This document shows, piece by piece, positions 10,267 to 35,061 of a stretch of 36,450 nucleotides of DNA. Positions within the stretch are counted from its first letter, which is position 1, and every line of letters starts with the position of its first letter. This DNA is from a virus, in the IMG/VR virus record IMGVR_UViG_3300048930_000252, positions 1 to 36,450 of that record; one strand, 5' to 3'. The position numbers were made by a program, and so were the translations under genes. Under the pieces are notes generated by a model, which did no database searches, was not told where the DNA came from, and saw nothing but the letters and a program-made list of their open reading frames with translations.

Positions 10267-12261
10267 ATGTCTTTGAAATATGTTTTAGAAGTTGACGACA
10301 AAGGCACGCCGAAGGTAAAGGCGTTTGAGTCTGCTGCGAATCAAGCGGACAAAGCAGCGCGCAGAATGGGCGCGGGCATTGATCGCGCCGGGCAAAGCTC
10401 CGCCGCGTTGAAGTCCGTTATTGGTGGTCTCGTTGGTGCGCAGGGTGTGAGGATGCTCGTGCGCGGTGTGGGCGATACCATCGCCGCCTATGATAAGCAA
10501 ATCCAGGCAGAGACGCAACTCACCCGGGCGATGGGCTACCGCTCCGAGGCTCTGATAAAGCAAGCCAGCGCCTTGCAGCGGCTTACCACTTTCGGCGATG
10601 AGGAGACGATTGCAGCGCAGTCCCGCCTTGCGGATTATGTGGGAGAGGAAAAGCAGATTGCAAGGTTGATACCGCTGATCCAAGACTTTGCCACGAAGAA
10701 GGGTATGGACTTGGTGAAGGCTTCCGAGCTTGTGGGTAAGTCCATCGGCTCGGGCACCAACGCTTTGCAGCGGTACGGTATTGCTGTCAACATGACAGGC
10801 ACCGAAGCGCAAAAGACTGAGGAGCTGATAGCCAAGCTGGGCGCAGGGTTTAAGGGCTCTGCCGAGGCTGCTGCGCAGGCTGGCATGGGGCCGATTGTGC
10901 AATTCCAGAACGCTTTGGGAGACCTGAAAGAAGAGATAGGCAAAGGACTTTTGCCGATGATCTCAAAACTTGCGACCGAGTGGACGCAGTTTTTGCAGGA
11001 TCGCAGCGGTCAGAAGATGGTGCAGGAAAGCATCACCGCAAATGCTGAGCTTCTGCGCGTTGTCAACCTGGTAAACGATGCTCAAGCGAGTGTGCAGGCT
11101 ATTGAGTCTGACCTGATAATAGCACGGAGCGAGGGCGACCAGAAGCGTATCGCTAGTCTTGAGACTGACCTTGCGCACTGGACAAAGCGCGAGGCGGCAG
11201 CGCGCGAGCAGTACAACACGCTCAGAAATGAGAAGATCCAAAAGACTCAAGACGATGCCGCTGCAATCGCCGCCGCCGCCGCTGCTAAAGCTGCCGAGAA
11301 GAAGGCAATCAAAGACCTTGAGGAAGCGGAGCGCCGCCGGGCTGAGTCCGCAAAGCTGGCCGAGCAACAGCGCGCAGAGTGGGCGCGCACAACCGCAGCA
11401 CAACAGAAGGAAGCGAGAAAGAATTTACAGGACATGGTTGCCGAGGAAGAGCGCCGCGCCGCCATCAAGTCCGTGCATGGCGGGACAGAGGTCAGTCAAG
11501 CGCAGTACGAGGAAATGGTGGAGCGCGAAGAGATGATCCGTCAGCTACGCCTTGAGGCTATGGATGAGTTCGAGCGCAAGAGCGCAGAGGCTGAGATCCG
11601 CAGGCAGGAGCGGTTATTTATTGCTGGGGAGGATCAGAAAGCGCAGCACATGGCGGAGCTCGCCTACCGCGCTGAGATTGACCAGCTAGACGCAGAGCGC
11701 GCGGCGAAGAGTCAAGAGGCGCATCAAAAGGAAATGGACGCAATCCGCAATGAGCATCTTGCGCGCGTTGCTTCCAGCGCCTCCATGATGGGCTCGCTGT
11801 CTGCCCTCATGGGTGGACGCAAGAAAGCCAACGCCATCACCAAGGGGCTTCTGATTGGCGAGGCGTGGGCCAATACCTATGTCGCCGCAACTCGCGCCTT
11901 GGCGACCCCTCCCGCCCCTAATTATTTCGCGTTCGGTGCTGCGATGCTGCAAGGTGGCGTAGCTGCGCAGGGCATTAGTCAAAAGATGGTGGTCGGTGGA
12001 TTGCCTCGCGGACGCAATGCGGTCGTGCAAATGAACGAAGCGGGGCAAGAATTTGTAGGTAACGCCGGGATGACTCGCACGGTTGGCCGTGACTTTGTGG
12101 AGCGCGGTAACTCTGGTGCCACCCGGGAAGAGCTTGCGGAGCTGCTTGGCGGCCAGAGTCGCGGAGGTGTGACGGTGAATGTGTCCGGTGCTATTGGTTG
12201 GCGCATGATGGCCGAGGAAGTGATCCCGGCTATCAGGCAGCACGAAAGGAGCATGCGTTAA
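10267..12261 (+). CDS. Tape measure protein
   Basis: 664 aa, directly after the chaperone pair. It sets tail length and is carried inside the tube. The N-terminus MSLKYVLEVDDKGTPKVKAFESAANQADKAARR resembles tape-measure starts. A TMP core with TRAMGYRSEALIKQASALQ and GKSIGSGTNALQRYGI follows, then a long alanine/glutamate coiled coil (roughly 270-490). From about residue 503 a hydrophobic segment (SASMMGSLSALMGG, then LLIGEAWANTYVAATRALATPP) may serve in membrane passage. The length predicts a rather short tail compared with lambda gpH (853 aa). The stop overlaps the next start (TAATG). Confidence 0.9.
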   Translation: MSLKYVLEVDDKGTPKVKAFESAANQADKAARRMGAGIDRAGQSSAALKSVIGGLVGAQGVRMLVRGVGDTIAAYDKQIQAETQLTRAMGYRSEALIKQASALQRLTTFGDEETIAAQSRLADYVGEEKQIARLIPLIQDFATKKGMDLVKASELVGKSIGSGTNALQRYGIAVNMTGTEAQKTEELIAKLGAGFKGSAEAAAQAGMGPIVQFQNALGDLKEEIGKGLLPMISKLATEWTQFLQDRSGQKMVQESITANAELLRVVNLVNDAQASVQAIESDLIIARSEGDQKRIASLETDLAHWTKREAAAREQYNTLRNEKIQKTQDDAAAIAAAAAAKAAEKKAIKDLEEAERRRAESAKLAEQQRAEWARTTAAQQKEARKNLQDMVAEEERRAAIKSVHGGTEVSQAQYEEMVEREEMIRQLRLEAMDEFERKSAEAEIRRQERLFIAGEDQKAQHMAELAYRAEIDQLDAERAAKSQEAHQKEMDAIRNEHLARVASSASMMGSLSALMGGRKKANAITKGLLIGEAWANTYVAATRALATPPAPNYFAFGAAMLQGGVAAQGISQKMVVGGLPRGRNAVVQMNEAGQEFVGNAGMTRTVGRDFVERGNSGATREELAELLGGQSRGGVTVNVSGAIGWRMMAEEVIPAIRQHERSMR

Positions 12262-20788: not shown

Positions 20789-20850
20789 TGGGGGCCTCGC
20801 GCATCGGTCTGCCGTCCACCGGATCAGCGCGGGGTGCCCCATCTTTTTTT
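20787..20850 (+). terminator. Terminator of the structural operon
   Basis: A long imperfect hairpin: GATGGGG (20787-20793) pairs with CCCCATC (20837-20843), enclosing CGCGC/GCGCG and CGGT/ACCG pairs. Seven T follow (20844-20850). It begins at the last base-pairs of the upstream stop codon and overlaps the end of the convergent helicase gene, so the T run is part of that gene's antisense strand. It would stop rightward transcription from running into the helicase. Confidence 0.7.
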
Positions 20851-22161
20851 GCGGATATTGTACCGGACATGCGCCCACCCTGGGGCGTGACCCCTGCGCC
20901 TCCCCAGCTCTATCCAGTCTGCAAGCACCCGGCACGCCTGCTCTTCTTTTTTTCGCTCCTTGCGCTGCGCCTCTGCGGACTCCGGCGAGTATGGCACCAG
21001 CTCACCGCCGAGCATAATCATGCGTTGCTTTTTAACCGGGTACACAAGGCCACACCGGGGGCAAGCTGGCGCACTCATATGGTAGCACCCGCACCGCTTA
21101 CACTTGCGATAGGATAGGCCCATATCATCGGGATTGGGTGGCCTGCGCTTGACCCCTGACAGGCTCCACTCGCGCTCCTCCTCGGCAATTCCCAAGCGCA
21201 GGCAGTTGCCTACCAGGTCAATGCACACAGCCTCCACCTTCCCAGCCGAGGGACGCAAGACGCGCCCAAGCTGCTGCATGTGCAAGCCCTGCGACTCTGT
21301 GCGCCGGGCAAGGATCGCCACGCCGAGGTTAGGGCAGTCAAAACCCTCCGAGATCAAGTCTTTTGACATCACAAACCGCAGGCGACCCGCTGCAAGCTCT
21401 GCGACCACCTCAGATCGCTCATTTGCTGGCATTGCCCCATAGAGCGCCCGCGCAGGGATTCCCGCCGCAGAGAACGCCGCAGCGCTTTGGATGGCGTCAT
21501 CCACTGAGCGCGCGAAATATACCCCTTGCATCCCCATGCCGTGCTTGCGGTACATCTCTATGGCGCGGTCTACCATGTGCCCACTCTCCAGTATCTCAGG
21601 AGGCACCCAGTAGGCAGCAGTGCAGAGGTGTCCCAGACGCATAAGATCGGACACTGAGGGGCCTAGTACAATAGCCTGGTAAATTTCCCCCAATCCTCTA
21701 TCATCGGCGCGGCATGGGGTGGCGGTGACGCCGAGGATCTTTGCATCAGGCGCAGCCCTGCACACAGCCGACCATTGCTCAGCTATCGTGTGGTGCGCCT
21801 CATCTATGATTATCAGGCTATACTGGCTCAGCGTGTCCATGTCCAACGACTGCGCAGAGCCTACGGCGATCCGTGCGCCGGGTACGCGCCAGCCTATCCC
21901 GCTGGAGACGGCTTCCGGGGCGATCATATCGGCGACTATGCCCAGCGAGTAAAGCGCGCGCCACGCCTGACCGAGCAACTCTTGGCGATGCACCACCACC
22001 AGTACGCGACCGGGCCAAGCCTGCGCGATGTGGGAAAAGCAGACGGTTTTCCCTGCACCTGTGGGCAGCACCCCAAGCACTGCTCGGTGATTGGCTAGGC
22101 TTTGGCAGACGCGAGAAATCCAGTCTTTTTGATAGTCTCGCAGCTCTATCTTTTGGGCCAC
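20824..22161 (-). CDS. SF2 DEAD/DEAH-box helicase with C-terminal zinc finger
   Basis: About 445 aa on the minus strand. Clear motifs: IELRDYQ at the N-terminus (Q-motif position), Walker A PTGAGKT, DEAH box IIIDEAHH, GVTATP, and motif VI QQLGRVLRP. A Cys4 zinc finger CKRCG...CPRCG sits near the C-terminus. Members of this UvsW/RecG-like/Res-III group act as DNA-dependent ATPases in replication or recombination. I chose GTG 22161 because the family usually begins near the RDYQ motif; a longer frame reaches 22281 but would overlap the HTH gene completely. It overlaps the HTH gene by 16 bp, so the two form one minus-strand operon. Confidence 0.85.
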   Translation of the reverse strand: MAQKIELRDYQKDWISRVCQSLANHRAVLGVLPTGAGKTVCFSHIAQAWPGRVLVVVHRQELLGQAWRALYSLGIVADMIAPEAVSSGIGWRVPGARIAVGSAQSLDMDTLSQYSLIIIDEAHHTIAEQWSAVCRAAPDAKILGVTATPCRADDRGLGEIYQAIVLGPSVSDLMRLGHLCTAAYWVPPEILESGHMVDRAIEMYRKHGMGMQGVYFARSVDDAIQSAAAFSAAGIPARALYGAMPANERSEVVAELAAGRLRFVMSKDLISEGFDCPNLGVAILARRTESQGLHMQQLGRVLRPSAGKVEAVCIDLVGNCLRLGIAEEEREWSLSGVKRRPPNPDDMGLSYRKCKRCGCYHMSAPACPRCGLVYPVKKQRMIMLGGELVPYSPESAEAQRKERKKEEQACRVLADWIELGRRRGHAPGWAHVRYNIRKKRWGTPR

Positions 22162-22349
22162 ACCACACCAGGGGCGAGGATTGTATCGACGCGGATTTTC
22201 GTTTCTTCGCGGGGTTGCTTTCCCGAGTAGAGCCACCCGCGCACGGTCTGAGGTGTGCATTGTAGCTGATCCGAGAGCCACTGCGCGAAACCGCGCACAC
22301 TCAGGCCTGAGCGTTTTATGTATTGGGGTAATTGGGCTTTTCTCGACAT
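22146..22349 (-). CDS. Cro-like HTH regulator
   Basis: 67 aa starting at ATG 22349 on the minus strand with AGGAAC upstream. A helix-turn-helix is readable in LSVRGFAQWLSDQLQCTPQTVRGWLYSGKQP. It is the first gene of a two-gene minus-strand operon with the helicase and lies divergent from the RecT-like gene, 99 bases away. A role as a repressor or switch controlling both directions is inferred from this position. No integrase or larger CI-type protein is nearby, so lysogeny is not indicated. Confidence 0.75.
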   Translation of the reverse strand: MSRKAQLPQYIKRSGLSVRGFAQWLSDQLQCTPQTVRGWLYSGKQPREETKIRVDTILAPGVVWPKR

Positions 22350-29784: not shown

Positions 29785-29802
29785 TGCGCACGGTGCGCGT
29801 TA
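29782..29802. repeat. 10-bp inverted repeat at left edge of the cassette array
   Basis: TAATGCGCAC and GTGCGCGTTA flank a single G; a 10-bp dyad with one G-T type mismatch. It overlaps the preceding gene's stop codon and has no T run, so it is not a normal terminator. Its place, 28 bp before the first GTTAGGC, suggests an operator, a recombination element or a fold at the array edge. Confidence 0.5.
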
Positions 29803-29817
29803 TGCTGCAACAAAATG

Positions 29818-29836
29818 GCCTAATGGGTTGTTAGGC
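29818..29836 (+). repeat. Reduced core site, left boundary of the array
   Basis: GCCTAA (29818-29823) and TTAGGC (29831-29836) around TGGGTTG. This gives the R''-like and R'-like ends of an attC with the internal L''/L' stem missing. The crossover point G^TTAGGC (29830/29831) would be the left edge of the first cassette. Could be a deleted attC or the original insertion target. Confidence 0.55.
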
Positions 29837-29861
29837 GAACAAAAGGAACATTGAGGACGAT

Positions 29862-30104
29862 ATGAGAAAAATAACAATAGGCAATAGCCCAATTTCAAAG
29901 ACGATCTATGCTGGGCATCTGAACAAGAAAGGTAATATGTGGCTTGAAAAGCAAGATTGTACCATTGATGTTCTGGTTGCTACCGTACAACATTGCCTAA
30001 CTCATGGCGATCAAGTGATTACAAATGCAACCACAGGGAAGGTTGAATTTGAAATCAGTGTCAAGGACTGTCGCCTAACATCCGTTGGTGCTGACCAACT
30101 TTGA
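29862..30104 (+). CDS. Cassette 1 protein, small hypothetical
   Basis: 80 aa, start ATG 29862 with GAGGA five bases upstream, 31 bp after the cassette's left edge. Readable: MRKITIGNSPISKTIYAGHLNKKGNMWLEKQDCTIDVLVATVQHC, then KVEFEISVKDCRLTS. The NSPISKTIYAG-x-LNKKG start resembles a small phage/plasmid family of unknown role (DUF7446-like, from memory, not verified). The last ten residues (VGADQL) and the stop are encoded by the attC left arm. Being in a cassette, it would be expressed from an upstream promoter, here probably 29163-29191. Confidence 0.75.
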   Translation: MRKITIGNSPISKTIYAGHLNKKGNMWLEKQDCTIDVLVATVQHCLTHGDQVITNATTGKVEFEISVKDCRLTSVGADQL

Positions 30105-30150
30105 GAACCATAAATTGATGCAAAGTTGGCAGCACAACTTGGCGTTAGGC
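30073..30150 (+). repeat. attC site 1 (78 nt)
   Basis: R'' GCCTAAC (30073-30079) and R' GTTAGGC (30144-30150). The left arm GTTGgTGCTGaCCAACTTT pairs with the right arm AAAGTTGGCAGCACAAC. The left arm has two extra bases (g and a), the extrahelical bases expected of attC. Crossover between G30144 and T30145. Confidence 0.95.
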
Positions 30151-30173
30151 ATACAAAATAAGACGGGGAGTAT

Positions 30174-30380
30174 ATGTATATCCTAGTTAGAATCGGATTT
30201 AACGATACACGATCAAACGAAAAGGTATCAATCAAAAAGTCTGCTTTGGAAAAGACCCTAAAAGAGGAAGGGTACTATTGGTCAAGAAAAGCAAGCCGAT
30301 ATATTGACGACAAGAATTGTGGTATTGAAGGTGGCAGCGGTGTTGATTACATCATTGAAAAATGTGAAGAAATTAAATAA
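30174..30380 (+). CDS. Cassette 2 protein, small hypothetical
   Basis: 68 aa, start ATG 30174 with GGGGAG upstream, 30 bp after the cassette's left edge. Lysine- and glutamate-rich (MYILVRIGFNDTRSNEKVSIKKSALEKTLKEEGYYWSRKASRYIDDKNC). Unknown function. It ends eight bases before attC 2 and is the shortest cassette product. Confidence 0.7.
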   Translation: MYILVRIGFNDTRSNEKVSIKKSALEKTLKEEGYYWSRKASRYIDDKNCGIEGGSGVDYIIEKCEEIK

Positions 30381-30387
30381 AACCGAA

Positions 30388-30440
30388 GCCTAACAAGCGA
30401 TGAAGCCGATGCGAATGCACGGCTTATCTAGGCGTTAGGT
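30388..30440 (+). repeat. attC site 2 (53 nt)
   Basis: R'' GCCTAAC (30388-30394) and R' GTTAGGT (30434-30440). Stem GATgAAGCCG pairs with CGGCTTATC with one extra g on the left arm, loop around ATGCGAATGCA. Shorter than attC 1 and 3. Confidence 0.93.
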
Positions 30441-30473
30441 ACACAACCTTCGGTTGGATTGAGGAGAATACAA

Positions 30474-31283
30474 ATGGAACTAAATCGAATATACTGTGAA
30501 AACAATTTGGAAACGATGAAAAGGATGCCAGATAACTTTATTGACTTGACCGTAACTAGCCCGCCTTACGATAATTTAAGAACATACAATGGGTATTGCT
30601 TTGATTTTGAATCGGTGGCAAAAGAGCTTTATCGTGTGACGAAACTGGGCGGTGTTATTGTTTGGGTGGTTGGTGACGCTACTATAAAGGGTAGCGAAAC
30701 GGGAACCAGTTTCAAGCAAGCCCTGTTTTTCAAAGAATGCGGATTCGATTTGCATGATACAATGATATATGAGAAATCAGGAATGGCGTACCCTGACTCC
30801 ACCAGATACCATAATGTGTTTGAGTATATGTTTGTTTTCTCAAAAGAACAACCTAAAGCGATTAACTTGATAAAAGATCGAGAAAACAAATACAAAGGGA
30901 CGCTAGGTGGGAACAAGAGAGGAGGGCTTTGTAAAAGAGGGGATTACGGAGCACGATTTAATGTATGGAGATTTGCAAACGGTAGGGATAACTCATCGAA
31001 ATACAGAGAGGCGTTCCTCCATCCTGCAATATTTCCAGAACAATTAGCAAACGACCACATTATTTCGTGGTCAAATGAAGGCGATTTAGTCTATGACCCA
31101 TTTATGGGAAGCGGCACGACTGCAAAGATGGCTTTGATAAATAATCGCAAGTTTATCGGATCGGAAATAAGCCAAGAATACTGTGACATTGCAAACAAAA
31201 GAATCAATACATACCTAACAGACGTTGGTGCTGACAAGCCCAGAGACTTAGATGGATTATGCTGGGCTTGCAGCACAACTTAG
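30474..31283 (+). CDS. Cassette 3, DNA methyltransferase (N4/N6 class)
   Basis: 269 aa. ATG 30474 has GAGGAG about 9 bases upstream. Catalytic motif IV TSPPY (residues 28-32) comes before the SAM motif I DPFMGSGTT (about 208-216), the beta-type arrangement of N4-cytosine/N6-adenine methyltransferases. The opening MELNRIYCENNLETMKRMPDNFIDL is like CcrM-type/DpnA-type enzymes. Specificity cannot be read. It would methylate phage or host DNA, for protection or regulation. The last residues, from about TDVGADKPRDLDGLCWACSTT, are encoded by attC 3. No restriction partner lies nearby. The A+T-rich codon use differs from the phage genes. Confidence 0.93.
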   Translation: MELNRIYCENNLETMKRMPDNFIDLTVTSPPYDNLRTYNGYCFDFESVAKELYRVTKLGGVIVWVVGDATIKGSETGTSFKQALFFKECGFDLHDTMIYEKSGMAYPDSTRYHNVFEYMFVFSKEQPKAINLIKDRENKYKGTLGGNKRGGLCKRGDYGARFNVWRFANGRDNSSKYREAFLHPAIFPEQLANDHIISWSNEGDLVYDPFMGSGTTAKMALINNRKFIGSEISQEYCDIANKRINTYLTDVGADKPRDLDGLCWACSTT

Positions 31284-31291
31284 CGTTAGGC
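31213..31291 (+). repeat. attC site 3 (79 nt)
   Basis: R'' ACCTAAC (31213-31219) and R' GTTAGGC (31285-31291). Left arm GTTGgTGCTGaCAAGCCCAG and right arm CTGGGCTTGCAGCACAAC pair, with the same two extra bases as attC 1. The site overlaps the end of the methyltransferase gene. Confidence 0.95.
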
Positions 31292-31312
31292 TAATGCGAG
31301 GAAATGAAAACG

Positions 31313-31768
31313 ATGTTTTATCTATCAGTACCAAAACAAGTCAAGACAACGAACCATAACCGCCTAGAGATGACTGGAGGTGCGTGGTCGATGGATGCGC
31401 AATGTGGGGCAAAACCAAGATCAATGACTGCGCTGTATGACCTAATGCGAGGTTCTTGTTTTTGTGCTTATGGCGCTTTTGCTTTTTGCTCTAGTAAAGG
31501 TGATTGTAAAAACTGCAAAACAAGCCAATTTGCAGAATCCAAAGAAACCTTTTTTGGTGGCTATGATGCTCTATACATTCACGCACTAACCGACCCCCGA
31601 GGCGATAGAGACAAAACAAAAGAATTGATCGTAATGGTATCACCATACATAGATGAGATAGAGGCAAGCAAGCACTATTCAATGTGGTATAGCGCAAGCG
31701 AGGTTTCTAGGTGGAACGGAAAAACTAAAATGATTGGAAATGTTATTGAAATAAAACCCATAGCCTAA
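31313..31768 (+). CDS. Cassette 4 protein, cysteine-rich hypothetical
   Basis: 151 aa from ATG 31313, which has GAGGAA nine bases upstream; ATG 31304 in the same frame is too close to that site. Cysteines cluster in SMDAQCGAKPRS, GSCFCAYGAFAFCSSKGDCKNC, a likely metal site. Later FFGGYDALYIHALTDPRGDRDK and VSPYIDEIEASKHYSMWYSASEVSRW. No family recognised. The stop codon TAA is part of the R'' GCCTAAC of attC 4, so the gene fills its cassette exactly. Confidence 0.75.
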   Translation: MFYLSVPKQVKTTNHNRLEMTGGAWSMDAQCGAKPRSMTALYDLMRGSCFCAYGAFAFCSSKGDCKNCKTSQFAESKETFFGGYDALYIHALTDPRGDRDKTKELIVMVSPYIDEIEASKHYSMWYSASEVSRWNGKTKMIGNVIEIKPIA

Positions 31769-31817
31769 CAAACGATGTACCGACCACAGGAAGTGGCGAT
31801 ACATCTCAGCGTTAGGT
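31763..31817 (+). repeat. attC site 4 (55 nt), right end of the array
   Basis: R'' GCCTAAC (31763-31769) and R' GTTAGGT (31811-31817). Arms GATGTAcCGaCCAC and GTGGCGATACATC pair with one mismatch and one extra a. Crossover after G31811 marks the right edge. Confidence 0.92.
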
Positions 31818-31848: not shown

Positions 31849-32013
31849 ATGAGCGAGCAGATACGAATGAAAAACACACCAAAACAAATCATTGAGCGCA
31901 AGATAGACTTTCTAGGAAAACAGAAGCACAACGGCATTGTTTTCCAATACGCACAATACACCATCACGGTACTGCGGGACATACTAATAGAGATGGAGGG
32001 GGAGAAGTGTTAA
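31849..32013 (+). CDS. Small hypothetical protein
   Basis: 54 aa with AAAGGAG eight bases before ATG 31849. Basic first half (MSEQIRMKNTPKQIIERKIDFLGKQKHNG) then ILIEMEGEKC at the end. It follows the last attC and has no attC of its own, so it belongs to the phage side of the junction. Its 3' end (31989-32009) repeats a sequence present at the ends of the next two methyltransferase genes and carries the Shine-Dalgarno for the next GTG start. Confidence 0.6.
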   Translation: MSEQIRMKNTPKQIIERKIDFLGKQKHNGIVFQYAQYTITVLRDILIEMEGEKC

Positions 32014-32879
32014 TCAATGACCATTTCCAGAATTTCAAGGTCTACGGCATCCCTAAGGCGCAGCTAATTATTGCGGATATTCCGTACAACATTGGGAAAA
32101 ACGCCTATGGCTCTAATCCCGCTTGGTATGTGGATGGGGATAACAAGAACGGGGAGAGCTCACTAGCTGGTAAAGAGTTCTTTGATACTGACAAGGATTT
32201 CCGACCTGCTGAGTTCATGCATTTTTGTACAAAGATGCTACGCAAGGAGGGTAAGGAGCGCAACACAGCATCGTGTATGATTGTTTTCTGTGAGTTCTGG
32301 CAGCAATTCGTACTTAGAGAGTTGGCACAAAAACACGGCTTTGAAGGGTGTATAAATCTAGTGTTCCGTAAAAACTTTAGCGCGCAGGTGCTCAAGGCAA
32401 ATATGCGTGTTGTGGGGAATGCTGAATATGGGCTTTTGCTTTACAAGAATAAATTGCCTAAATTCAACAACAATGGAAAAATGGTATTCAATGTGATGGA
32501 CTGGGAATCTGACGAAAAAACCGAGCTTTTCAGGAAAATACATCCAACACAGAAACCCGTTAAGCTACTGGAAAGGCTGATTGAGATATTCACCGACCCA
32601 GGGGATGTTGTGATAGACCCGTGCGCCGGAAGCGGATCCACGCTGATCGCAGCCCTTAACATGGGGCGCAAGGCATACGGGTTTGAGATCAAAAAGAACT
32701 TCCACAAAGAAGCATCCGACTGGATTGAAACCCATAAGCGAGTGTTTTCTGAGGTGAGGGAATACGGGTTTTCAGAAACTCAATCAAAGCTAAAAGACCC
32801 GAATCAGGAGTTCCTTTTTTCCGCAACTGCTATGACCGACCTATTCCAATCACCCGCAGAGATGGAGGGGGAGAAGTGA
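32007..32879 (+). CDS. DNA methyltransferase, beta type (DIPY)
   Basis: 290 aa, GTG 32007 with GGAGGGGGAG upstream. Motif IV is D24-IPY (IIADIPYN, a DPPY variant), followed much later by motif I DPCAGSGST (about 204-212), the beta-class order for N6-adenine or N4-cytosine methylation. Also HPTQKPVKLLERLIE as in many phage and Dam-associated methyltransferases. The tail reads AMTDLFQSPAEMEGEK, a near-copy of the tail of the next gene. The sequence between the two genes is shared (GTGA overlap). Probably protects phage DNA or modifies transcription. Confidence 0.92.
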   Translation: MLINDHFQNFKVYGIPKAQLIIADIPYNIGKNAYGSNPAWYVDGDNKNGESSLAGKEFFDTDKDFRPAEFMHFCTKMLRKEGKERNTASCMIVFCEFWQQFVLRELAQKHGFEGCINLVFRKNFSAQVLKANMRVVGNAEYGLLLYKNKLPKFNNNGKMVFNVMDWESDEKTELFRKIHPTQKPVKLLERLIEIFTDPGDVVIDPCAGSGSTLIAALNMGRKAYGFEIKKNFHKEASDWIETHKRVFSEVREYGFSETQSKLKDPNQEFLFSATAMTDLFQSPAEMEGEK

Positions 32880-32881
32880 GC
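32834..32881 (+). repeat. Gene-junction repeat, copy A
   Basis: 48 nt almost identical (one mismatch) to 33949-33996: end of one gene, purine-rich Shine-Dalgarno and the GTGA overlap with the next start. A 21-nt part of it recurs at 31989-32009. Confidence 0.85.
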
Positions 32882-33994
32882 ATTCCAAAGATCCCATTCC
32901 CCTGGTTTGGCGGGAAGTCAAGGGCCGCTGAATTGATCTGGTTAAGAATTGGCTCGGACATTGGCAACTATGTGGAGCCCTTTTTTGGATCGGGTGCTGT
33001 GTGGTTTGCGCGCCCTAAAGATTTCTCAGGGTGGGCAACGGCAAACGATTTTGACGGGCTTGTTGTGAACTTTTGGAGGTCAATGAGATACGCGCCCGAA
33101 ATGACCGCAAAGGCGGCTTGTAATCCAGTCTTTGAGGCTGATCTACACGCTAGGCACTTGGCCCTAGTGAATGCCTCTGGGGGCCTTGCAGGGCGATTGA
33201 TGGCTGACCCTTACTACCATGAGCCTGAGCTTGCGGGGTGGTGGGCTTGGGGGGCTTGCGTGTGGATTGGTAGCGGGTGGTGTCGCGGGGATGGCCCTTG
33301 GCGGGCTGTGGCTGATTCCGAGGGCGTGGATGTGTTCAGCCTTGGCGATGGCGGCAGAGGCGTTAATCGGCAGTTGCCTCACCTTGGCGATGGCGGCATA
33401 GGCGTTAATCGGAAGTTGCCTCACCTTGGCGATGGCGGCAGAGGCGTTAATCGGCAGTTGCCTTACCTTGGCGATGGCGGCAGAGGCGTTAATCGGCAGT
33501 TGCCTCACCTTGGCAATGGCGGCATAGGCGTTAATCGGAAGTTGCAAGGAGACCGATTAGAGTGGATCACAGACTGGTTTTCCGACCTATCCAACCACCT
33601 CCAGCCCCTACGCCTTGCCTGTGGGGATTGGTCGCGGATTATGAGCGTTGGCACAATGACTAGAAACGGAATTGCAGGCGTATTGCTTGATCCCCCATAT
33701 AGCCAAACTGAACCCGTCTATGCTATGGATGGGAAAGAAATGGCCCCAGCGGTGCGGGAGTGGTGTGCTGAGAATGGAGGCAATCCGCAGCTAAGAATAG
33801 CCCTATGTGGCCACGAAGGGGAGCATAATTCCCTGGAGGCGATGGGGTGGACTGTGGAAACATGGGACAAGGCGGGAGGCTACCAGGGCGCGGATGATCG
33901 GGAGCGCATTTGGTTTTCGCCGCACTGCAAAAAACTAAACCCAGCCCAGACCGACCTATTCCAATCACCCGCAGAGATGGAGGGGGAGAGGTGA
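32876..33994 (+). CDS. D12-class adenine methyltransferase (Dam-like)
   Basis: 372 aa, GTG 32876 in a GTGA overlap. D12-class marks: FPWFGGKSRAAELIW at the N-terminus, NYVEPFFGSGAVWFARP (motif I with the ExFxGSG pattern) and LLDPPYS (Asp272). This group is the Dam family of N6-adenine methyltransferases. Residues 156-225 are an insertion of five near-identical 14-residue repeats (LGDGGRGVNRQLPH) in the region where such enzymes carry target recognition. The C-terminus ends KLNPAQTDLFQSPAEMEGER, with a QxDLF motif that fits the beta-clamp binding consensus. Function: modification of phage DNA. Confidence 0.92.
   Translation: MSIPKIPFPWFGGKSRAAELIWLRIGSDIGNYVEPFFGSGAVWFARPKDFSGWATANDFDGLVVNFWRSMRYAPEMTAKAACNPVFEADLHARHLALVNASGGLAGRLMADPYYHEPELAGWWAWGACVWIGSGWCRGDGPWRAVADSEGVDVFSLGDGGRGVNRQLPHLGDGGIGVNRKLPHLGDGGRGVNRQLPYLGDGGRGVNRQLPHLGNGGIGVNRKLQGDRLEWITDWFSDLSNHLQPLRLACGDWSRIMSVGTMTRNGIAGVLLDPPYSQTEPVYAMDGKEMAPAVREWCAENGGNPQLRIALCGHEGEHNSLEAMGWTVETWDKAGGYQGADDRERIWFSPHCKKLNPAQTDLFQSPAEMEGER
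33341..33550 (+). repeat. Five 42-bp in-frame tandem repeats
   Basis: Five consecutive 42-bp units encode LGDGG-[RI]-GVNR-[QK]-LPH. R/Q and I/K units alternate except between units 3 and 4, and the final unit differs (LGNGG...LQG). In-frame, so copy-number change does not break the gene. There are no unique spacers, so this is not a CRISPR. Confidence 0.95.
33932..33964 (+). repeat. Gene-end repeat shared with 34273-34305
   Basis: 33 nt identical to 34273-34305, the end of the next gene (encoding the NPAQTDLFQ tail). It also overlaps the junction repeat 33949-33996. Confidence 0.85.
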
Positions 33995-34350: not shown

Positions 34351-35061
34351 ATGAATAATCTTTTCTGGGTAAAACTGCAACCCAACAAGCTGGTGGATAT
34401 TATGCTTTTGGACGATGTCGCCATGCTGATCCGCGTCAAATCGCTCTTTGCCGCACTGGTAAAGATGGAAAAAGGCATTGACCCTTTGGCTGACGAAATT
34501 ATAGATCAGCATGAGCAGGATCATGAGAAATTCTCCGAAATGGGGAAGAAGTCTGTTCAACGCAGGTTGAACGCAGGTTCAACGCAGGTTGAACCTAGGT
34601 TGAACCGCGTTAACATCGTTGAGCCTAGGTTGAACGCAGGTTCAAACCTAGGTTCAACGCAGGTTGAACCGCAGTTAAACGCAGGTTCAACGCTAGTTCA
34701 ACAGACTAGACTAGACAAGACTAGAGTAGACAAGACTACCACTACAGAGAGTGGTGGTGGTCGGGTTTTTGAGAAATGCAGAGTTTTGGGAGAGGGAGAA
34801 GTGCAGATTGACACCCCCGCCGGGAAGCGCACCGTAAGCTGCGATCCGGGCCTAGAAAAATTCGTTGCGGCCATCGGTGATGCGGTGAACCAACTGGACG
34901 ACCGGCAAGGCAACCGCGACCGGATCGGGCTAGTCGCTGAAGAGATGCTATCCGAGCTATCCGACCTCGTGCAGGACGGCACCCTGCACACCTCACAGGG
35001 TGAGCCGGTGAAATCCTACGCGGCGTATCTCAAGACCACTCTCAAAAAGCGCGCCCTATGA
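34351..35061 (+). CDS. Replication protein with origin-like repeats in its gene
   Basis: 236 aa, start ATG 34351 with AAAGGA eight bases before it. N-terminal FWVKLQPNKLVDIMLLDDVAMLIRVKSLFAALVKMEKGIDPLADEI is helical. The middle (about 68-130) is a linker encoded by the 11-bp iteron array at 34555-34702. The C-terminal half (ESGGG through LKTTLKKRAL) contains KFVAAIGDAVNQLDDRQGNRDRIGLVAEEMLSELSDLV. It precedes a DnaB-like helicase gene by an ATGA overlap, as lambda O (whose gene carries the origin) precedes P. An initiator role is therefore likely. No O-family sequence can be confirmed by eye. Confidence 0.6.
   Translation: MNNLFWVKLQPNKLVDIMLLDDVAMLIRVKSLFAALVKMEKGIDPLADEIIDQHEQDHEKFSEMGKKSVQRRLNAGSTQVEPRLNRVNIVEPRLNAGSNLGSTQVEPQLNAGSTLVQQTRLDKTRVDKTTTTESGGGRVFEKCRVLGEGEVQIDTPAGKRTVSCDPGLEKFVAAIGDAVNQLDDRQGNRDRIGLVAEEMLSELSDLVQDGTLHTSQGEPVKSYAAYLKTTLKKRAL
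34555..34702 (+). repeat. Iteron array, candidate replication origin
   Basis: Fourteen copies of a GTTSAAC-type unit start at 34555, 34566, 34577, 34588, 34599, 34609, 34618, 34629, 34640, 34652, 34663, 34674, 34685 and 34696, i.e. mostly 11 bp apart. Many share GGTTSAACGCA. Two 12-nt direct repeats TAGACAAGACTA follow at 34712 and 34727. Iterons inside an initiator gene are the lambda O/ori pattern. Confidence 0.75.

Follow-up and report, generated by a model that had tools for sequence, protein, structure and literature searches.

Integrons are the gene-trading system of bacteria. Clusters of attC sites lacking an integrase (CALINs) have also been described in phages: Qi et al. (2023) list 17 of them, several with methyltransferase cassettes, report that IntI1 recombines five of the six phage attC sites tested, and propose as a possibility that phages capture blocks of bacterial integrons (PMC9892861). 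In addition, the cryptic Shewanella prophage M16-3 carries a CALIN with its own attI site beside a complete integron (PMC9892861).

Herein, we analysed a stretch of 36,450 bases, called the window below, which comprises positions 1 to 36,450 of the possibly incomplete IMG/VR virus record IMGVR_UViG_3300048930_000252. Its cassette array resembles the published CALINs of TJE1, P12002L and PH101, which are integrase-less, attC-bounded clusters in tailed phages, some of them with N6/N4 methyltransferases (PMC9892861). In contrast to those cases, the family of attC sites and leaders seen here spans six phage lineages, three of which also have an attI-like border in common. M16-3 likewise has a CALIN within a phage genome, but it has a complete integron alongside, whereas no recombinase accompanies the array in the window phage. 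As in sedentary chromosomal integrons, similar attC families end small genes of mostly unknown function; unlike those integrons, the arrays are phage-borne, lack an integrase and are short, the longest found having five attC sites. The core sites, the hairpin layout and the repeat and spacing of the left border recall attI1 and attC of class 1 integrons, although the sequences differ and the attI role of 29799-29836 is putative.

The sequence-only reading had regarded such arrays as rare in phages. The rarity holds, but the phenomenon is not new, as phage CALINs have already been published (PMC9892861), and the window array alone adds another case to them. The new part is one attC and leader family, together with an attI-like platform, across unrelated phages; we found no prior report of either in the openly licensed papers that were searched.

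attC sites, cassettes and phage backbone of the window

The attC sites were assessed with a covariance model, R1, for which integron integrase loci were collected from bacterial genomes and 16 bottom strands of the adjoining attC sites were aligned. The training set contained bacterial integron attC sites only, and phage sequence was kept out of it to avoid circularity. R1 was run without filters on both strands over the whole length of the window. Its four best matches were exactly the four sites noted from the sequence alone, all on the minus strand, and the next match reached 12 bits (E 0.4). Of 50 integron-bearing genomes, some of which contain R1 training sites, the model detected attC sites in 40. 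When applied to 172 kb from other phages, it matched two sites only, both in TJE1, for which attC sites have been published; the third of the three attC sites published for TJE1 was scored by R2, a phage-trained model. The features of the array are as follows, with cassette limits set by the crossover G|TTRRRY and with bits and E-values from R1.

29799-29836, plus strand: left border, putatively attI-like; GTTATGCTGCA repeat, then GGCCTAA-N7-GTTAGGC; crossover between 29830 (G) and 29831 (TT)
29831-30144, plus strand: cassette 1, crossover to crossover, GC 0.42
29862-30104, plus strand: cassette 1 gene, DUF7446 protein, 80 aa, ending inside attC1 (PF24233, E=4e-15; phrog_1578)
30073-30150, minus strand (functional bottom strand): attC1, 78 nt; 34.4 bits, E=6e-7; fold z -5.3
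30145-30434, plus strand: cassette 2, GC 0.39
30174-30380, plus strand: cassette 2 gene, 68 aa, no family above cut-off
30388-30440, minus strand: attC2, 53 nt; 33.6 bits, E=1e-6; fold z -3.7
30435-31285, plus strand: cassette 3, GC 0.41
30474-31283, plus strand: cassette 3 gene, orphan N6/N4 DNA methyltransferase, 269 aa, ending inside attC3 (PF01555, E=1e-45; PADLOC orphan MTase, E=4e-106)
31213-31291, minus strand: attC3, 79 nt; 29.6 bits, E=1.1e-5; fold z -6.9
31286-31811, plus strand: cassette 4, GC 0.42
31304-31768, plus strand: cassette 4 gene, 154 aa, no family above cut-off
31763-31817, minus strand: attC4, right border of the array with crossover 31811|31812, 55 nt; 21.9 bits, E=1e-3; fold z -6.3

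All four sites have exact core ends, RCCTAAC at R'' and GTTAGGC or GTTAGGT (GTTAGGY) at R', in agreement with the inverted pair R'' RYYYAAC and R' GTTRRRY. Folded as single-stranded DNA, each bottom strand gave a single imperfect hairpin, in which one arm carries one or two additional single bases, and no shuffled sequence folded equally well. Rfam, at its gathering threshold, gave no match in the window. With four attC sites on one strand within 1.75 kb, where at least two close sites make a CALIN, and with no match in any reading frame of this possibly incomplete record to either an integron integrase (TIGR02249) or a tyrosine recombinase of any kind (PF00589), the array is a CALIN; the intI gene of a complete integron is absent from the record. 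The sequence-only reading had described four attC sites with R''/R' cores and a stem with extra bases on one arm, and had called them an integrase-less attC cluster inside a tailed-phage genome; the independent bacterial model, the folds and the phage genes described below bear this out in full.

The array consists of four one-gene cassettes, all in the same direction. Only a few bases separate R' from the gene starts, which have a ribosome-binding site, and two of the reading frames run into their own attC sites, both of which are usual for integron cassettes. The DUF7446 protein of cassette 1 has relatives in Vibrio, Aeromonas and Salmonella phages, and in three other phages examined DUF7446 was a plain gene with no attC site nearby. 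A search for relatives of the 154-aa cassette 4 protein found none.

The window is a tailed phage genome in which the array is surrounded by genes for terminase, portal and tail. Matches were obtained for the large terminase, portal, tape measure, a RecT-like annealing protein, an exonuclease and a DnaB-like helicase, and phage genes continue on both sides of the array. The phage is probably virulent. The GC content of the array is 0.41 versus 0.55 for the rest of the record, of which it is the lowest-GC 2-kb stretch. Backbone relatives were sought in IMG/VR by way of the helicase or the terminase and none were found.

Two more DNA methyltransferase genes lie directly downstream of the array, outside the cassettes (32007-33994), the first with a low GC content of 0.45. 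A DNA helicase gene (phrog_16, E=1e-70) occupies 20824-22281 on the minus strand, opposite to most of the recognised genes. Repeats of the GTTCAACGCAGGTTGAAC type at 34555-34700, within the open reading frame 34351-35061 immediately ahead of the DnaB-like helicase gene, look like replication-origin iterons inside an initiator gene.

Related arrays and array borders in other phages

Eight IMG/VR contigs matched an attC pattern taken from the window, and seven of them hold sites also scored by R1. The remaining contig, G005 (L094), had a single pattern match without support from the bacterial attC model, and was treated as chance. The seven array contigs represent five further phage lineages: G001; G002; G003; G004 with G006 and G007; and G008. 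R2 was trained on the window and contig sites, and its higher scores are not independent evidence. An exact 20-base attC motif, which is very strict, had no match in IMG/VR, and BLAST of the attC sites against plasmids and phages gave no matches. Since the IMG/VR scans used strict patterns, the attC family is probably undercounted.

G004, G006 and G007 are more than 99% identical in long shared stretches and carry one unchanged array in three metagenomes. There is a distant relationship among G002, G003 and G004, and the window has in common with G003 a D12 methyltransferase (67% aa identity) and a DnaB-like helicase (43%); DNA similarity between the array-bearing lineages is otherwise sparse. 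Phage-family genes were recognised in G002 (large terminase), G001 (DnaB-like helicase) and G008 (SbcC-like nuclease subunit). Neither TIGR02249 nor PF00589 matched in the seven contigs, which may be fragments.

Despite the sparse similarity of the lineages otherwise, their attC sites reach identities of 98.75% over 80 nt (G002/G004), 96.6% over 59 nt (G002/G008) and 93% over 75 nt (window/G003). Cassette leaders also recur across lineages, namely TTAGGCTAATGCGAGGAA, TTAGGTACACAACCTTCGGTTGGAT and TTAGGCGAACAAAAGGAAC. The first of these is the leader of cassette 4 in the window and was found again in G001, G002, G003, G004 and G007, and the cassette 3 leader (30435-30469), a CAACCTTCGGTTG hairpin with a ribosome-binding site, was found again in G002 and G003. 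The cassette genes differ between lineages: N6/N4 methyltransferases occur in two more of them, besides a radical SAM protein, a weakly HNH-like protein, DUF7448 and unknowns. The GC content of the arrays is 0.38-0.42 regardless of that of the backbone (0.38-0.55).

The array starts were then compared. Two in G001 and one in G008 have about 155 bp in common at 80-92% identity; the second G001 start was called from its border and leader only, no attC site being found before the contig end, and as both contigs come from the same metagenome the two finds are not fully independent. The similarity stops exactly at the G|TTAGG crossover. Identity after the R box is 50-52%, near background, and the sequence further upstream is also unrelated. 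The shared platform lies, in oriented contigs, at:

G001, 55809-55963: shared platform
G008, 11270-11426: shared platform

At the G004 array start, the last ~50 bp of this platform are recognisable, with a score reached by none of 2000 shuffles. A single border followed by different first cassettes, with the change at G|TT, is as predicted by integrase insertion at an attI-like platform, and we regard the G001/G008/G004 border as a candidate attI-type capture platform. Several TTATCCGG-type repeats lie within the G001/G008 platform, and similar repeats adjoin the attI site of the bacterial locus L068, but they occur in too few further loci to carry much weight.

The left border of the window differs from this platform. 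It is attI-like in sequence, and its role as attI is unproven. Its motif at 29799-29836 occurs nowhere else in the window, against 0.06 occurrences expected when one mismatch is tolerated. The GTTAYGCNGCA repeat and its spacing are as in class 1-type attI sites, the N at position 8 having been allowed only after the phage sequence had been seen. Local alignment to the attI site of a bacterial integron (L059) gave p=0.007 with five references tried, a weak likeness.

Proposed cassette exchange and its alternatives

We consider it about two chances in three that the window array is an integrase-less cassette array in a probably virulent tailed phage that takes cassettes from a common pool by means of an integrase acting in trans. 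Each cassette would be a promoterless gene with its own leader, ribosome-binding site and terminal attC site; being oriented like the surrounding phage genes, the cassettes are presumably read from phage promoters. When phage DNA becomes single-stranded in replication or recombination, the attC bottom strand could fold into its hairpin, and cassettes would be excised by an integron integrase that the host, or some other element, provides in trans. Insertion would follow at G|TTRRRY sites, preferentially at the attI-like platform on the left border. One pool of cassettes of about 40% GC may serve unrelated phages, its cargo being genes of use to a phage, for example those for orphan DNA methyltransferases, HNH proteins and DUF7446/DUF7448 proteins. 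What we infer is that the cassettes recombine in trans, that the border acts as attI, which way the cassettes were transferred, and that they are expressed and of benefit.

The sequence-only reading had already proposed that cassettes are traded through a host integrase in trans, and the proposal stays an inference here too. It gains indirect support from the same attC family and leaders with other genes elsewhere and from the platform that ends at the crossover base; the published recombination of phage attC sites by IntI1 (PMC9892861) also fits it. Against a strong form of it are the unchanged array of G004, G006 and G007, the left border of the window, which departs from the G001/G008/G004 platform and is weakly attI-like, the fact that no empty, rearranged or polymorphic version of the window array was seen, and the outcome of the bacterial searches, in which neither an integrase source nor a host was found. 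A search pattern for phage-like attC sites matched none of 369 genomes of one bacterial class, and the very strict exact 20-base attC motif had no match in 85,000 genomes of all species. In the same attempt to place the host by phage-like attC sites, R2 peaked at about 50 bits in ordinary bacterial integrons (50 integron-bearing genomes). The bacterial search, which took in 369 genomes from a single class, 50 integron-bearing genomes and one exact motif, leaves room for a donor integron, the likely ultimate source of the cassettes.

Alternatively, host chromosomal integron blocks (attI with cassettes) may have entered the phages by illegitimate or homologous recombination and then been plainly inherited without any movement; Qi et al. 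raise such capture as a possibility (PMC9892861). Near-identical attC sites with different genes are also expected of the chromosomal integron of one host clade, which makes block capture possible, and the uniform GC content of about 40% in all arrays, like the constancy of the array in G004, G006 and G007, fits it. However, borders common to different phages stop exactly at the crossover base and are followed by different first cassettes, and the attC sites and leaders are related but non-identical in unrelated phages of different GC. On balance, we consider passive capture unlikely, though deserving of serious weight.

Short intergenic hairpins are common in phages and two of the four sites overlap gene ends, so the hairpins might be ordinary terminators or regulatory elements that resemble attC by chance; given the complete R''/L''/L'/R' layout, to which the bacterial attC model gives E-values down to 6e-7, the exact core ends at every site, a consensus terminator scan that reported none of the four, and the same attC family in other phages, this is very improbable. 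Least probable of all is a bacterial integron piece misjoined into a phage contig, which a single metagenomic contig with an abrupt GC change at the array might suggest but which conflicts with the phage genes on either side, the same-family arrays within other phage contigs and the one lineage (G004, G006 and G007) assembled with the same array from three metagenomes. Both readings were rejected on the flanking-gene, architecture and other-phage evidence.

Returning to exchange in trans, a broader version is tentative: several unrelated phage lineages may keep an integrase-less integron platform and swap counter-defence and other cassettes via the host integrase, as a phage-level integron network. 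If so, unrelated, probably virulent phages with a common pool and platform would be users and carriers of integrons, and methyltransferases and other accessory genes would be swapped by site-specific instead of chance recombination. Part of phage mosaicism would then have a mechanism that can be tested, and cassettes would have a route between bacterial lineages. Since the shared border ends at the crossover base, the cassette-pool idea is directly testable.

Further features of the array-bearing contigs

Pairs of an IS607-like recombinase and a TnpB-like protein are encoded near arrays in G008 (L112, 13425-16008) and in G001 (oriented 47257-49802), and G001 opens with 105 bases that recur without mismatch in G008. 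In G004 (L106, 4465-4753), two attC sites flanking one cassette contain an identical 46-nt stretch, about 190 nt apart, and the outer of the two has lost part of its core sites. G001 also encodes a 1424-aa ribonucleotide-reductase-like protein (oriented 40768-45042), which, going by sequence alone, appears to contain two intein-like insertions.
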